Below are positions 1-49,378 of a stretch of DNA of 50,878 bases, one piece after another. This DNA is from Blastococcus mobilis. Lineage in GTDB: Bacteria > Actinomycetota > Actinomycetes > Mycobacteriales > Geodermatophilaceae. The position numbers and the translations under genes were made by a program. Position 1 is the stretch's first letter, and each line of letters starts with the position of its first letter. The stretch covers positions 1 through 50,878 of the forward strand of contig NZ_FZNO01000031.1 in assembly GCF_900188025.1 (NCBI RefSeq), given 5' to 3'. The notes beneath the pieces were generated by a model. That model was not told where the DNA came from and searched no databases. It saw nothing but the letters and a program-made list of their open reading frames with translations.

Positions 1-249
1 GTCCAACACTACGCCGGTCTCCAGTCCACCCGATCCCGGGCCCCTGGTCCGGCGAACCTCCCGGTCCGCGCGGCGCATGGAGAACAGTACACGACATCTC
101 GGGGGCGTGCACGGGGGGTCCTCGGAGGCGGGCCGTCCCGGATCCGCCCGGAGCCGGCGACGCGTAGGAGGACGGCGATCCCATGCGGCCGCGCCCCGAG
201 GCCGTCCCCCCGCAGGGTCCCGACGGGAACGTGCGAACGGCGGGGGGGG
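1..249. other. Window edge without a recognisable gene
   Basis: No reading frame here looks like a real protein: the open frames are short, arginine- and proline-rich translations typical of non-coding GC-rich DNA. The stretch lies downstream of dapB, which is read leftward. Nothing further can be supported. Confidence 0.4.
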
Positions 250-374
250 TCCTTCTACGGGGCGTGCGGAGGACGGGGTCCTTCTACCGAGCCTGCGAAG
301 GGCGAGAGATCTGGGCCGCCCTCCTGCACGGCCCCGACGCGAGCCTGCGAGCGGTGGGGCAGGAGAGTCCTTCC

Positions 375-376
<2 letters not shown>
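250..376. repeat. Dispersed stem-loop repeat, one partial and one full copy
   Basis: The second copy (about 321-376) contains GAGCCTGCGAGCGGTGGGG followed by an AGGA-GTCCTT end. This is the same order of blocks seen near 14.4, 21.5, 28.8, 33.6 and 37.2 kb. The partial copy (about 268-300) has GGACGGGGTCCTTCT next to GAGCCTGCGAAG. It lies directly downstream of the dapB stop, so a role in transcription termination is plausible but unproven. Confidence 0.6.
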
Positions 377-5216: not shown

Positions 5217-5441
5217 GTGTCCTTCTCTCTTCTTCGTCGCAGCGGCCTCGTGCCGGCGTGCGACTCCTCTGACGGCCTCGTGCCGTCCTGCGTCCGGGGC
5301 GACCGGTGCTCGATCGAAGCCCTCGGGCGGTGCCGTTCCCCTCCTGCGGAGAACTGATACGTCCCGGGGGCCACTACCGAGGACCGGCCCCTTCTGGGAC
5401 GCGTCCGGCGGCTGGCCGGTTCTCCCCGTGCGACGGGTGCC

Positions 5442-5765: not shown

Positions 5766-5885
5766 GTATCGCCTCCGGGGCGGGTCACGTGTGGCCCCCG
5801 GTCTGGGTCACGGGGGCAGGTTTCACACACGCCGGGTTGCCCCGGCCCTGCCAGCCTACCCGTCCTCCGGACGGAACCGCGGCCA

Positions 5886-6024
5886 GGTGCCGTTCCCCCG
5901 CTGCTCGAAGCCTTTCCCCGTCCCACCTCGGAGGACCCTCCGGGCCCCCGCTCGGCGTGACCGCTCCGCGGCTGCTCCCCGTCGCTCCTCGGGGGGACCC
6001 TCCGGGCCCCCGCTCAGAGCGACC
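5886..6024. repeat. Tandem duplicated GC-rich segment between ribF and rpsO
   Basis: The block GGACCCTCCGGGCCCCCGCTC occurs at about 5933-5953 and again at about 5994-6014, a period of about 61 bp. The flanking bases (CTGCTC...CCCCGTC...CCTCGG) are also repeated. GGACCCTCCGGG-type halves can form short hairpins. It separates ribF from rpsO, so a terminator or boundary role is possible. Confidence 0.6.
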
Positions 6025-14370: not shown

Positions 14371-14465
14371 CGTCCCCGATCCCGCCCCCGGCCTGCGAGG
14401 TGGGGGGACGGTGGCCGGCGTCCCGGGTCCCGCCCCGAGCCTGCCAGGGACGGGGCGGACGGGCC
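14371..14465. repeat. Dispersed stem-loop repeat, two copies in tandem
   Basis: Two adjacent copies (about 14,371-14,415 and 14,420-14,465) share GTCCC-GG/GATCCCGCCCC-GGCCTGC blocks with the other members. They sit between ylxP and rbfA, immediately after the ylxP stop. Confidence 0.6.
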
Positions 14466-14469
14466 CCTC

Positions 14470-14766
14470 TCAGTCGTCGGTGTCGGCGAACAGTTGCCGG
14501 TGCGTCGACAGCAGGGTCACCTCCGGCCGCTCGGCCAGCAACCGCTCGCACGCGTCCAGGACGTCGGTCACCTGGCCGACGTCCCCCGAAACGGTGGCGA
14601 TCCCTACCTGCACACGGCGGTGCAGGTCCTGGTCCCCCACCTCGGCGGCGGCCACGGCGAACCGGCGCCGCAGCTCGGCCACGATCGGCCGGACCACAGC
14701 CCTCTTGCCCTTGAGCGAATGCACGTCGCCCAGCAGGAGGTCAGCGGTGAGCGTGCCCGTGAACAC
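14470..14766 (-). CDS. ylxP: DUF503 / YlxP-like protein
   Basis: A 98-residue protein of the YlxP (DUF503) family, found between infB and rbfA in many Gram-positive bacteria and thought to act in ribosome or RNA metabolism. The conserved start V-F-T-G-T-L-T-A-D-L-L-L and the H-S-L-K-G-K-R motif are clear, as is V-G-I-A-T-V-S-G-D in the core. A longer frame starts at 14790, but the GTG at 14766 has AGGAGG 9 nt upstream and matches the family start. Its ribosome-binding site lies inside a dispersed repeat copy. Confidence 0.88.
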   Translation of the reverse strand: MFTGTLTADLLLGDVHSLKGKRAVVRPIVAELRRRFAVAAAEVGDQDLHRRVQVGIATVSGDVGQVTDVLDACERLLAERPEVTLLSTHRQLFADTDD

Positions 14767-14770
14767 TCGA

Positions 14771-14832
14771 AGGACCCTCCTGCCCCCCACCGTTCGCGAG
14801 CTCGCGCCGGGACCCTGCAGGAGGGCCGTTCC
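14771..14832. repeat. Dispersed stem-loop repeat between infB and ylxP
   Basis: Outer arms GGACCCTCCTGC and GCAGGAGGGCC pair with one bulge around a core containing CACCGTTCGCGAGCTCGCG. It lies just after infB and supplies the AGGAGG in front of ylxP on the minus strand. It could attenuate or terminate transcription, or occlude that ribosome-binding site. Confidence 0.62.
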
Positions 14833-21455: not shown

Positions 21456-21608
21456 AAGGACCCCCAGAAGGACCCCGTCCTTCCCACCACTCGCAGGCTC
21501 GCGGCGGGACCCGGGACGGGGCCATGCGACCCCCGCACGCTCGCGGCGGGACCCGGGACGGGGCCATGCGACCTCGCAAGCTCAGGGTGGGACCCGGGAC
21601 GGGGCCGT
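21456..21608. repeat. Dispersed stem-loop repeat, one full and two partial copies
   Basis: The full copy (about 21,469-21,523) has arms GGACCCCGTCC and GGGACGGGGCC around TCGCAGGCTCGCGGCGGGA. Two truncated right halves follow with near-identical G-G-G-A-C-C-C-G-G-G-A-C-G-G-G-G-C-C ends. It fills the convergent gap between the DUF4439 gene and the PBP gene, the place expected for a bidirectional terminator. Confidence 0.75.
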
Positions 21609-23515: not shown

Positions 23516-23535
23516 GGCGACAGACTGTCAGAAAG

Positions 23536-23592
23536 AGGACCCCGTCCCCCTCGCGCCTCGCTGCGCTCGACGCGAGCCTCCGGACGGGGCAG
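23536..23592. repeat. GC-rich palindromic repeat between GNAT and PBP genes
   Basis: GGACCCCGTCC and GGACGGGG ends flank a CTCGCGCC...GACGCGAG inner stem. The ends match the dispersed family, but the core differs, so this is a variant or hybrid copy. Confidence 0.5.
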
Positions 23593-28761: not shown

Positions 28762-28769
28762 CCGGCCTC

Positions 28770-28820
28770 CTCCAGGGCACCGCCCCGAGCTTGCGAGGGG
28801 TGGGGAGGAGGAGGTCCGTC
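28770..28820. repeat. Dispersed stem-loop repeat between DUF2631 and VIT genes
   Basis: Contains CACCGCCCCGAGCTTGCGAG-GGGTGGGGAGGA, aligned with the other copies. It sits in a convergent gap, right after both stops. Confidence 0.65.
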
Positions 28821-28821
28821 C

Positions 28822-29538
28822 TCAGGCGACCGTGACGCCGATCAGTGAGCCGACGGCATAGGTGATCCCCGCCGCGGCCACGCCGAACAGCAGCTGGCGC
28901 AGCGCCGCGTACCACCACGGCCGCGGCGTGAACCGCGCCGACAGCGCACCGGCGACCAGCAGTCCCAGCCCGCCGCAGAGGAGCGCGACCCACAGCAGCG
29001 AGACGCCGAAGAGGTAGGGCAGCAACGGGATCAGGGCACCCGTCGCGAAGGTCAGGAACGAGGAGACCGCAGCGACGCGCGGGGACGGCTTGTCCTCCGG
29101 GTTGAGCCCGAGCTCGGCGACGACGTGCAGCCGCAGCGCCGTCGCGGGATCGCGCGACAACTGCACGGCGACGTCGTGGGCCAGGGCCTCGTCCACACCG
29201 CGCACCCGCAGCATCTGGACCAGTTCCGCGAGCTCTCCCTCGGGGTTGCGCTCGAGCTCCCGGCGCTCCTTCTCGACCTCGAGGTCGAGCTGCTCGTTCT
29301 GCGTCCTGACCGACGTGTACTCGCCGAGCGCCATCGAGATGGCCCCGGCCACGAGGCTGGCGCCACCGGCCAGCACGATCGCCCGTGGGGGCGCACCGCC
29401 GCCGCCCACGCCCGCGACGAGCGCGGTGTTGGTGACCAGGCCGTCCATGGCTCCGAAGACGGCCGCCCGCAGCCACCCGCCGGAGACGTCGGCGTGACTG
29501 TGCTCGTGCGCCTCGGCCTCCGGCGGAGCCGAATTCAC
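28822..29538 (-). CDS. VIT1/CCC1-type iron or manganese transporter
   Basis: A 238-residue membrane protein of the vacuolar iron transporter family. The first helix has F-G-A-M-D-G-L-V-T-N-T-A-L-V-A-G-V, followed by the M-A-L-G-E-Y-T-S-V-R segment. A cytoplasmic Glu-rich helical hairpin (E-V-E-K-E-R-R-E-L-E onward, about 100-140) resembles the metal-binding domain of VIT1, and a three-helix C-terminal half follows. These proteins move Fe2+ or Mn2+ by proton antiport. GTG at 29,538 has GGAGG 4 nt ahead; the 62-codon extension upstream is not conserved. The short His-rich start (E-A-H-E-H-S-H) may bind metal. Confidence 0.88.
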   Translation of the reverse strand: MNSAPPEAEAHEHSHADVSGGWLRAAVFGAMDGLVTNTALVAGVGGGGAPPRAIVLAGGASLVAGAISMALGEYTSVRTQNEQLDLEVEKERRELERNPEGELAELVQMLRVRGVDEALAHDVAVQLSRDPATALRLHVVAELGLNPEDKPSPRVAAVSSFLTFATGALIPLLPYLFGVSLLWVALLCGGLGLLVAGALSARFTPRPWWYAALRQLLFGVAAAGITYAVGSLIGVTVA

Positions 29539-33401: not shown

Positions 33402-34538
33402 ATGACCGAGGCCGTGCTCCTGCACCTCATCGAGCCGGCGGAGTGGCGGAGGGCCCTGTCCCTCGGCGCCGTCCGACCGCCGTCCCTGGACGCCGTCGGG
33501 TTCGTCCGCCCCTCCCCGCCTGGGCAGGTTCACCTCTCGGCCGAGCGGCTCCATCCCGGACGGCGCGACCTGGTGCTGCTCGTGGTCGACCCGGGCCGCC
33601 TGACCGGCCCGGTGCGCATGGAGGCCGGGGTACCGGCCGGCCCCCGTCCCGGGTCCCGTCCTGAGCCTGCGAAGGGTGGGGAGGACGGGGTCCTTCTCTA
33701 CGGCCCGCTCCCCACGAGCGCGGTCGTGGCGGTCGTGCCGTACCGGCCGCCGGTCGCACCGGTGCTCCCGGCCGCCGACGGCGTCCTCGGCCGGGCGATC
33801 GCCTTCTACTCGTCGCTGCCGGTTCGGCGGGCCGTGCGAGTGGGTGACGTCCCCGGCGGCGTGGCCGTGCCGGACCCGGACTTCCCGCACTCCCGGGACA
33901 ACAACCGGCTCGTCCTGACCGAGCCCGTGGACGCCGCCACCATCACGGCCACCGCCGACGAGGTCGCCGGCAACGCGGGCCTGCCCGACCGGGTCGCCAC
34001 GCTGATGTGGCCGGGCGCGGCGGAGGTGGCCGCCGACCTGGCCCGGCTCGGCTACGACATCGAGGAACAGCTCCTGATGGCCCGTCCCGTGGGGCCGCTG
34101 CCGGGCGGGGAGCGGGCCGAGGTGGTCGAGCAGCGCGAGGTGCACGAGCTCTGGGACCGCTCCTGGCGAACGGACCTGGCGGCCCTCGGCCCTCGGCTGG
34201 ATCAGGTGGTGCCCCAGTTGATCGGCCGCGAGCAGCTCAACGACCGGGTCGTCGCGGTCAGTGACATCGTGGTCCGGGAGGACGGCCGGGTGGTGGCCGC
34301 CGGCCAGCTCCGGGTCGACGGTGCGACCGCCGCGGTGGAGTCGGTGATGACCGATCCGGCGGCCCGGGGCCGCGGGTACGCCGATGCCGTCCTGGCGCGC
34401 TCGCTGGGCCTGGCCACGGAGGCAGGCTGCGACCTCGTGATGCTGGAGGCGGCGGCCGACGACTGGCCCCGGCACTGGTACGCCCGGCGCGGCTTCGAGG
34501 TGGTGGGGTCGACCTGGTGGGCCCACCGGCCGGCGTGA
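33402..34538 (+). CDS. DUF952-GNAT fusion protein carrying an in-frame repeat insert
   Basis: A 378-residue two-domain protein. Residues 5-115 match DUF952: L-L-H-L-I-E-P-A-E-W, P-P-S-L-D-A-V-G-F-V, L-V-L-L-V-V-D-P-x-R-L, then L-Y-G-P-L-P-T-S-A-V-V. The C-terminal part is a GNAT acetyltransferase with A-A-R-G-R-G-Y-A-D-A-V and H-W-Y-A-R-R-G-F-E-V-V. Between the DUF952 strand ending V-R-M-E-A and the L-Y-G-P-L strand lie about 17 extra residues (80-97), encoded exactly by one copy of the dispersed intergenic repeat. ATG at 33,402 follows AGGA. The substrate is unknown. Confidence 0.88.
   Translation: MTEAVLLHLIEPAEWRRALSLGAVRPPSLDAVGFVRPSPPGQVHLSAERLHPGRRDLVLLVVDPGRLTGPVRMEAGVPAGPRPGSRPEPAKGGEDGVLLYGPLPTSAVVAVVPYRPPVAPVLPAADGVLGRAIAFYSSLPVRRAVRVGDVPGGVAVPDPDFPHSRDNNRLVLTEPVDAATITATADEVAGNAGLPDRVATLMWPGAAEVAADLARLGYDIEEQLLMARPVGPLPGGERAEVVEQREVHELWDRSWRTDLAALGPRLDQVVPQLIGREQLNDRVVAVSDIVVREDGRVVAAGQLRVDGATAAVESVMTDPAARGRGYADAVLARSLGLATEAGCDLVMLEAAADDWPRHWYARRGFEVVGSTWWAHRPA
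33639..33698 (+). repeat. Dispersed repeat copy inside a coding sequence
   Basis: This 60-bp segment matches the reverse complement of the intergenic copy at about 21,469-21,523 nearly base for base: the GTCCCGGGTCCCG block, GAGCCTGCGA, then GGTGGG and AGGACGGGGTCCTTCT. It is read through without a stop in the DUF952-GNAT frame. Confidence 0.85.
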
Positions 34539-37184: not shown

Positions 37185-37194
37185 CCGCGACACC

Positions 37195-37252
37195 AAGGAC
37201 CCCCTGCCCCCCACCGCTCGCACGCTCGCGGCGGGACCCTGCAGGCGGGCCA
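37195..37252. repeat. Dispersed stem-loop repeat after tsf
   Basis: Core CACCGCTCGCACGCTCGCGGCGGGACCCTGCAG-type blocks, matching the 14.77 kb copy in reverse arrangement, sit directly after the tsf stop and before the perfect terminator hairpin. Confidence 0.68.
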
Positions 37253-43786: not shown

Positions 43787-45063
43787 GCCGCCGTCCTCTG
43801 CAGGCGCATGCCGAGCGCCTCGGCGACCTCGTCGCTGCCGGGCACCGAGTGCCCGGCCAGGTCTGCCAGCGTCCAGGCCACGCGCATGACGCGGTCGAAT
43901 CCCCGGACCGACAGCGCCCCGCGCTCCAACGCCCGCTCCACCAGCCCCAGGGCAGAGCGCGGCACCGCCCACCGCTCGCGCAGCAGCCGCCCGGGAACCT
44001 GGCTGTTGACCGTGAGCCCGGTGCCCGCCAGCCGCTCCCCCGCCGCGGCGCGCGCCACGGCCACCCGACGGGCCACCTCCGCGGTCGTCTCGGGTGGCCC
44101 CAGGCCGTCGAGCCACGCGGCGCGCGTCACCGGTGGGAGGTCCACCCGGAGGTCGATGCGGTCCAGCAGTGGCCCCGACAACCGCGATCGGTACCGGCGC
44201 CGCTCGAGCGAGCTGCACGTGCACGCGGTGTCGCCGGCGGCGCTGGCGCACGGGCACGGATTGGCGGCAAGCACGAGCTGCGCCCGGCACGGGAAGGTCG
44301 CCGAACCGGCCGCGCGATGGATGGTCACCTGTCCGCGCTCCAGCGGTTGGCGCAGCGTGTCGAGCACCGCGCGCGGGAACTCGGGAGCCTCGTCCAAGAA
44401 GAGCACCCCGCGGTGGGCCCGGCACACCGCGCCCGGCCGGATCTGACCGGAGCCGCCACCGATCAGCGCGGCCATGGTGGCCGAGTGATGGGGAGCCTCG
44501 AACGTCGGCCGGGTGACCAGTGGCGCCCCTGAGGGCAGCGTGCCCGCGACGGAGTGGATGGCGGTCACCTCCAGCGCCGCCTGCTCGTCCAGGGGCGGGA
44601 GGAGACCGGGTAGCCGCTCGGCGAGCATCGTCTTGCCTGCCCCCGGCGGGCCGGCCAGGAAGAGGTGGTGCCCTCCCGCGGCCGCCACCTCGACGGCCCG
44701 GCGCCCCGCGGCCTGGCCGACGACGTCCCCGAGGTCGGGAGGTGGCGCCGGCTCGGGCAGTGGGCCCCGGACGTGCCGGGTCAGCGGCTCGCGTCCGGCC
44801 AGGTGGGCGAGGACCTGGCCGAGAGTGCGCGCCGGGAGAACGTCGACGCTGTCGACCAGCGCGGCCTCCTCGGCGTTGGCCGTCGGCACGACGACCTGCC
44901 GATGTCCGGCGCGGGTAGCCGCCAACACCGCCGGCAACACCCCGCGGATGCCCCGCACCGATCCGTCGAGCCCGAGCTCGCCCAGGAGCACCAGCTGGTC
45001 GATCGACTGCTGGGGTACCGCGCCCGAGGCCGCGAGCACCGCCGCGGCGAGCGCGAGGTCAAA
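43783..45063 (-). pseudogene. comM: comM (YifB, Mg-chelatase-like ATPase), N-terminus lost
   Basis: ComM is a hexameric helicase that promotes branch migration during natural transformation. The frame has the AAA+ core (Walker A G-P-P-G-A-G-K-T, Walker B L-F-L-D-E-A-P-E-F) and the C-terminal Mg_chelatase domain. The family is about 500 residues. The visible part begins at F-D-L-A-L-A-A-A-V-L-A-A-S-G, aligned with residues about 80-85 of intact proteins. Upstream, codons turn into unrelated sequence with a stop 7 codons on (TAG at 45,084). The first usable start is GTG 45,039. The missing N-terminus is not elsewhere in the window. Confidence 0.85.
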
Positions 45064-45097
45064 GCAACGGTCAGGACACGTCTAGAGCTGACCAGCC
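45026..45097. repeat. Direct repeat 1, comM junction (att-like)
   Basis: A roughly 72-bp segment spanning real comM codons (45,026-45,063) and foreign sequence with TCAGGACACGTCTAGA (45,071-45,086). It matches 49,306-49,378 with one small gap. In the outer half the differences between copies are all transitions. Confidence 0.8.
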
Positions 45098-49305: not shown

Positions 49306-49378
49306 GAGGCCGCGAGCACCGCGGGCGGCCAACGCGAGGCCAAAGTGATGATCAGGACACGTCTAGAACTGGCTGGCC
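49306..49378. repeat. Direct repeat 2 (att-like, with comM-like half)
   Basis: Second copy of the comM-junction repeat. The left half (49,306-49,345) resembles comM codons (GAGGCCGCGAGCACCGC identical), but it is out of any comM frame and continues into unrelated DNA. The right half carries TCAGGACACGTCTAGA (49,352-49,367). Confidence 0.8.

Follow-up and report, generated by a model that had tools for sequence, protein, structure and literature searches.

Orthologue alignments confirm that a coding copy of a hairpin repeat in a DUF952-GNAT gene of a Blastococcus soil bacterium reads as an in-frame replacement that overwrites the conserved FPH motif of the DUF952 domain. The gene lies in the window, the whole 50,878-nucleotide stretch of DNA that was analysed, which is contig C77 of a 5.09-Mb Blastococcus genome (G000). 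It occupies positions 33402..34538 on the forward strand and encodes a protein of 378 aa whose N-terminal part is a DUF952 domain (Pfam DUF952, E = 1.3e-13, residues 11-111) and whose C-terminal part is a GNAT domain (Acetyltransf_1, E = 2.8e-9, residues 287-365). The repeat copy lies at 33639..33699 on the same strand and was matched at 80.1 bits (E = 1.8e-16 for the genome) by R1, a covariance model made from 26 copies, among them the coding copy itself. Its closest counterpart in the rest of the genome matches at 96% over 55 bp, and the 21466-21521 stretch, once reverse-complemented, matches it at 89% over 56 bp. A sequence-only reading of the window had taken 60 bp of this gene for a copy of a repeat that otherwise lies between genes, and these matches bear it out; a chance likeness is ruled out by the R1 E-values and by the single weak match among 117 other genomes of the class (below).

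We compared the window protein with its orthologues and found that 19 codons at 33639..33695 (forward strand) stand where relatives have 9 (DPxGxxFPH). The window protein reads GVPA-GPRPGSRPEPAKGGEDGVL-LYGPLP, whereas the genus's other orthologues, 15 of 15, read GVPxDPxGxxFPH-LYGPLP or something near it, as do nearly all members of a wider family set (55 rows and the window, 56 in all). Thus, 19 element-derived residues replace 9, FPH among them, with 57 nt in the window in place of 27 nt in relatives, and because 9 residues became 19, the net gain is 10. The sequence-only reading had expected about 17 residues to be added as an extra loop between untouched strands. The reading frame is indeed kept through the copy, but a plain insertion of 17 residues is ruled out by the alignments, and the strands were not left untouched, since the conserved FPH is removed and the other conserved histidine of the domain is gone too. 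The alignment of homologues that the same reading had proposed placed the segment at this site in none of the 55 other family orthologues, including the nearest by identity (L063, 80%). L063, from an assembly filed as 'Bacillus sp. AZ43' (G006, a name that is unverified), falls in the window's genus group, and the tree gives it no firm status as sister to the window. The insert and the codon 36 change described below both come from one assembly. A long gene-conversion donor was considered and rejected, as similarity to other copies ends no more than ~20 nt beyond the left end and ~10 nt beyond the right end.

The repeat consensus, GGCCCCGTCCCGGGTCCCGCCCTGAGCTTGCGAAGGGTGGGGAGGACGGGGTCC, folds as a two-part, G+C-rich hairpin of ~55 bp with one helix of 10 pairs and one of 7. 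Across an alignment of 150 copies from the window genome, which was fitted to the model and hence favours the hairpin, standard pairs made up 97.2% of pair cells, and 249 pair cells had changed on both sides, compared with a mean of 64 in shuffled versions and at most 44 in slid versions. Because the both-side changes far exceed these controls, the hairpin has been maintained while its sequence drifted. Each of the six reading frames was open in 89 to 141 of the 150 copies (five of the six in 115 to 141), so that landing in frame would need little beyond the right length. A known RNA family was ruled out: at gathering thresholds, a search of the window found no Rfam family for the repeat and returned only the cis-regulatory Actino-pnp RNA (RF01688; 53.4 bits), elsewhere in the window at 5302-5388 on the reverse strand.

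At an E-value of 1e-6, R1 matched 76 of 86 Geodermatophilaceae genomes, and at 1e-3 it matched all 16 genomes of the window's genus, with from 1 to at least 147 copies in each (1 in G005, 26 in G003 and 43 to at least 147 in the other 14). Outside the family, there was a single weak match among 117 other genomes of the class. The repeat is therefore nearly confined to the Geodermatophilaceae.

Within the window, R1 recovered copies at all five of the other sites that the sequence-only reading had named (14.4, 14.8, 21.5, 28.8 and 37.2 kb). Two are weaker intergenic copies at 14412..14472 (forward, 48.1 bits) and 14767..14827 (reverse, 47 bits). An intergenic copy at 21464..21524 (reverse) is accompanied by partial copies at 21534-21563 and 21574-21604, and an intergenic copy at 28763..28823 (forward, 77.1 bits) has convergent called genes on either side. 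The fifth, at 37191..37252 (reverse, 56.2 bits), is also intergenic and has counterparts at a similar distance from the DUF952 gene in eight relatives (L061, L063, L064, L067, L071, L075, L077 and L079); because of these same-offset counterparts, some copy positions look old and inherited. R1 also detected a weaker intergenic copy at 23531..23592 (reverse, 46.8 bits) and three weak copies ahead of the first called gene, at 131-186, 203-258 and 317-376 (131..376, forward).

To place the copies of the whole genome, genes were called with a simple codon model of our own. Of 148 above-threshold matches among the best 150 candidates, 147 were placed, the copy in L341 being left out; among those placed, 137 were intergenic, 6 lay inside a called gene and 4 overlapped one in part, in sampled DNA of which 86% is coding. 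The idea of a mainly intergenic palindromic family thus held up. The placement also showed a side preference. Among the copies listed, the GGTCC side faced gene 3' ends 107 times and 5' ends 29 times (p = 1e-11), with a median of 4 bp and a mode of 3 bp from the GGTCC end to the stop codon, whereas the opposite side was neutral (71 versus 66). Divergent gene pairs flanked only 8 of the 136 listed intergenic copies with both neighbours called. The same preference was seen in 121 copies from other loci (84 versus 26) and in 148 copies from Geodermatophilus sp. TF02-6 (G051; 95 versus 37), although spacing to the stop codon was looser in the latter (27 bp at the median, with 41 of 95 copies no more than 5 bp away). 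The 121 copies were drawn from 130 nonwindow matches by leaving out two duplicates and seven partial or weak matches; they contain one further duplicate (120 distinct) and share six copies with the G051 set. Six copies from named TF02-6 sequence recur unchanged in the G051 stretches. The G051 set holds 148 of 165 matches, the remainder being duplicates in overlapping loci and matches less than 250 nt from a locus end.

SPRITE, a terminator-like element of Streptococcus pneumoniae, is likewise a repeated hairpin that has been likened to terminators. An intrinsic terminator is a G+C-rich hairpin with a U run after it; in the hairpin repeat, the hairpin is conserved and lies behind stop codons, and the consensus has no T run in the gene sense.

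Copies inside genes, a count that the sequence-only reading had suggested, are few. Among the copies listed for the window genome, five of the six inside copies lie no more than 61 nt from a called start, and the window copy is the only one that is clearly interior. Inside copies less than ~100 nt from the end of a called gene were left out of the coding count, because starts may be miscalled. In the 121-copy set, all 8 inside copies are at most 43 nt away from a gene end. In L151, L107, L118, L152 and L066, where the copy ends 2 to 43 nt before the gene end, the last codons of called genes come from the repeat, which may therefore supply C-terminal tails. Copies at, or no more than 95 nt behind, the called starts of long genes (G000:C51:205936-205996, L424 1507-1647 and L380 1447-1585) point either to wrongly called starts or to additional in-frame copies at N-termini, of the kind seen in L068 below.

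We then scanned 56 orthologous DUF952-GNAT gene regions with R1. A second loop copy was found in L323 of G051, in the same DUF952 loop and in the opposite orientation; it replaces ~20 residues nearly one for one. In a tree built from the part of the protein behind residue 115, the window and L323 lie on opposite sides of a branch with 100/100 support, and, judged from this tree, the two loop copies arose independently. Furthermore, in-frame N-terminal copies occur in four genomes, Blastococcus sp. LR1 (L068/L320), B. aurantiacus (L070/L306), B. saxobsidens 67B17 (L078) and G040 (L309), the last in the same genus group as LR1. These copies follow a conserved start and are translated in the frame of the window copy, as RPRPGSRPEPAKGGED or variants of it; L068, L070 and L078 were missed by the gene caller and were assigned by hand from that start. 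A shrunken stretch at the N-terminal site of L079/L303 is read, from its sequence, as the relic of a copy. The N-terminal copies could reflect one gain with losses or two gains, both of which fit the tree.

The two loop copies are associated with changes at conserved histidines. In the window protein, codon 36 (33507..33509, forward strand), which in relatives encodes the His of GFVHLS, encodes Arg, and the FPH motif is replaced, so that both conserved histidines are absent, yet the protein still matches the DUF952 profile. In L323, codon 36 encodes Tyr (H36Y) and the second histidine is kept. His36 was present in all 54 orthologues without a loop copy (53 aligned, L339 judged by eye) and in neither of the 2 with one (p = 6e-4), an association noticed post hoc on n = 2. 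Of 56 rows, 54 retain the FPH histidine; the other two are the window and L339. L339 (from G067) is a third lineage with an altered DUF952 loop: the FPHLYG-bearing loop is partly missing in frame, FVHLS is kept, and there is no repeat match.

The distantly related DUF952 protein of PDB entry 2o0q has both motifs, GF[VI]HLS and FPH. The clan listing given in PMC7955679 puts DUF952 (PF06108) in the Pfam ADP-ribosyltransferase (ART) clan, and the same account describes one ART clade with two histidines in the active site. From clan membership and conservation, we infer that DUF952 itself would use its two conserved histidines in ART-type catalysis.

Has the window gene decayed specifically in DUF952? 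Of the sites that do not vary among 28 relatives, 7 are changed in the window, none in L063 and no more than 5 in any other row. At family sites conserved to at least 96%, the window had 8 changes in total (3 of 41 plus 2 of 3 sites in DUF952, 2 of 23 linker sites and 1 of 47 GNAT sites) and L323 had 7 (5 of 42 plus 1 of 3 in DUF952 and 1 of 48 in GNAT); rows without a copy reached similar or higher totals (19 in L340, 8 in L333 and 7 in L041), and the high count of L339 reflects the truncation of its row. For changes assigned to the window branch, the ratios of amino-acid to synonymous changes were 8:20 in DUF952, 24:23 in the linker and 10:18 in GNAT, compared with 5:6, 6:20 and 8:24 for L063. 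The overall difference was not significant (42:61 versus 19:50, p = 0.10), and the excess lay in the linker (24:23 versus 6:20, p = 0.03) and not in DUF952. The suggestion of decay specific to DUF952 therefore leans more on the two histidine sites than on any general rate. Decay of the whole gene is disfavoured, as the frame is open and the GNAT sites are mostly conserved; to judge from its codons, the window gene is not a simple pseudogene.

In G051, 12 of the 148 placed copies lie inside called genes, and 5 are in frame with over 100 nt between them and either gene end. These five are in the DUF952-GNAT gene and in genes for a pentapeptide-repeat protein (L354), a UvrD-like helicase (L408), an MmyB-like regulator (L357) and a bacterial PH-domain protein (L395). 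The helicase was matched in 80 of 85 genomes (G051 included), most often in two pieces that break over the insert, near residues 390 and 455. Matches in one piece came from eight genomes including G051, and the six of the other seven that were aligned carry a different repeat near the site; the hairpin stretch was absent from all 7 aligned helicase homologues. This second repeat, of ~105 bp, lies in frame at one site of the same helicase in six other genomes (L433-L438), in tandem in L434, and in L408 the hairpin element adjoins what looks like a remnant of it. The ~105-bp repeat also has copies in the window genome outside the helicase, with two overlapping matches in the window at 5861-6024. 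The pentapeptide-repeat protein was matched in 67 of 85 genomes; outside G051, the match mostly stops at residues 182-205 and starts again at 232-237. Among its 7 aligned homologues, L493 and L495 contain a short piece that resembles the same element in another frame. For the MmyB-like regulator, the segment was absent from all 13 aligned relatives.

How does the repeat relate to known palindromic elements? REPs, as defined in the relevant passage of PMC12306157, are usually extragenic palindromes that share a consensus and occur in multiple copies, with a length of 14-40 nt in E. coli. The hairpin repeat is likewise mostly extragenic (137 of the 147 copies listed), palindromic and multicopy with a shared consensus, but at ~55 nt it is longer than that definition gives. 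Its likeness is closest to the intragenic REPs of the GTAG and CGTC superfamilies, which the sections of PMC3733652 devoted to them present as palindromic, high-copy and mostly intergenic by gene 3' ends, with a minority in frame and UvrD-type helicases among the decorated genes; loops and linkers are suggested there to tolerate them. Compared with these REPs (20-40 bp in the same sections), the hairpin repeat is longer and two-part, and in the window gene it has replaced a conserved motif. GTAG REPs are mobilized by RAYT, whereas the consensus of the hairpin repeat has no unpaired terminal GTAG tag, and the RAYT-type transposase domain (Y1_Tnp, PF01797) was found in none of the 16 genomes of the genus, in a search whose control was positive in 5 of 14 well-known genomes. 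RAYT mobilization was rejected on this search of the 16 genomes. CGTC REPs have an unpaired CGTC end, a stem of 8-9 bp and a loop of 4-5 nt, whereas the hairpin repeat has no unpaired terminal CGTC, the CGTC of GGCCCCGTCC sitting in paired columns, and has helices of 10 and 7 pairs.

The sequence-only reading had instead likened the in-gene copy to the palindromic elements of Rickettsia. That analogy is fair insofar as those elements are also palindromic repeats found in frame within unrelated proteins, but in the part of PMC10969869 that describes them they are ~150 bp long, and nearly half of the first set lay inside ORFs, whereas the hairpin repeat is ~55 bp long and clearly interior copies are rare (1 of 147 in G000 and about 1-3% across two genomes, among the copies listed). 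Nor is Rickettsia the sole precedent, the nearest described kind being the intragenic REPs reported for many bacteria in those sections of PMC3733652. The hairpin repeat is a family distinct from both the intragenic REPs and the Rickettsia palindromic elements, though it works alike; from the Rickettsia families it is set apart by their description. Full-text searches of open-licence papers found no description of it. Word searches found 'palindromic' used only for CRISPR in PMC9686282, on the Geodermatophilaceae, and no mention of Actinobacteria, Geodermatophilus or Blastococcus in the main text of PMC3733652.

We consider it probable that a REP-like gene-end hairpin was copied via short homology into the DUF952 loop of a protein that was losing DUF952 activity and using its GNAT domain, swapping FPH for a Pro/Gly/charged tether. 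The element normally lies just behind stop codons, and its hairpin in that position, despite a consensus without a T run, suggests that it is probably part of mRNA 3' ends. DUF952 would have lost, or have been losing, its presumed ADP-ribosyltransferase-type activity, leaving the loop free to change, while the GNAT domain is presumably still in use. Since 27 nt gave way to 57 nt in a replacement rather than a clean insertion, and since no RAYT was found in the genus, the copy may have arrived by short-homology-driven copying or repair. Nearly all copies being intergenic, landings in genes would be rare or soon lost, most of them probably removed by selection. In-gene copies are found at termini and in loops and linkers, as well as in a DUF952 domain whose first conserved histidine is gone, and could survive there because most reading frames of the element are open. 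The L323 loop copy, which accompanies the loss of His36 without loss of the FPH histidine, fits an early loss of His36.

The order of events could have been the reverse, which we regard as possible but considerably less probable: the element would have struck the loop of an active DUF952, killing or altering the domain, and the other histidine would then have been lost by drift. L063, the nearest relative by identity, has neither change, as such an order allows, and the order of the two changes is not readable from one lineage. In G051, however, the loop copy goes with H36Y while the FPH histidine next to the element is kept, which speaks against the insertion having come first.

That the element is a selfish coding palindrome of the Rickettsia type, selected for compatibility with translation and habitually entering proteins, seems unlikely. 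In-frame copies do recur in several genes, those of the window, the N-terminal site and the helicase share a reading frame, and most copies are open in the majority of their frames. However, the openness of five of six frames needs no coding signature, copies in the other genes are read in different frames or lie the other way round, and, among the copies listed, only 1 of 147 in G000 and 5 of 148 in G051 are over 100 nt away from either end of a called gene, against the 86% coding share of sampled G000 DNA.

We give slightly less credence still to recruitment, in which the Pro/Gly/charged loop would have given the DUF952-GNAT protein a new regulatory or binding function and the motif replacement would be adaptive. 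The gene is open, synonymous changes outnumber amino-acid changes in both domains on the window branch, and the same loop was independently rewritten twice, but the two replacements differ in orientation and peptide, and G067 simply lacks part of the same loop. Assemblies can err at repeats, and one assembly lies behind the window, but an assembly or sequencing artefact is highly improbable given that continuous orthologous gene flanks the copy on both sides, that the copy is only ~60 bp long and keeps the frame, and that similar events occur in other assemblies.

Intragenic palindromes were known already from Rickettsia and some other bacteria, and the relevant passage of PMC10969869 terms the contribution of the Rickettsia elements to novel or modified proteins unexplored. 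The present case shows an element overwriting a conserved motif, beyond adding a loop, and documents a family-wide hairpin repeat just behind stop codons. Relatives with and without a copy in the same gene provide natural protein pairs that are directly comparable. A bolder proposal, which we advance with considerable doubt, is that the gene-end hairpin is a recurrent source of new protein sequence in the Geodermatophilaceae and that it rewrites the same ART-type loop upon loss of the first histidine, whereby an enzyme domain would come to serve GNAT as a fixed tether; its choice of site would then be nonrandom, with the N-terminus and, twice in independent lineages, the loop being used.

The window also contains a separate 54-bp direct repeat, at 45044-45097 and 49325-49378, whose two copies are 80% identical and lie 4.3 kb apart.
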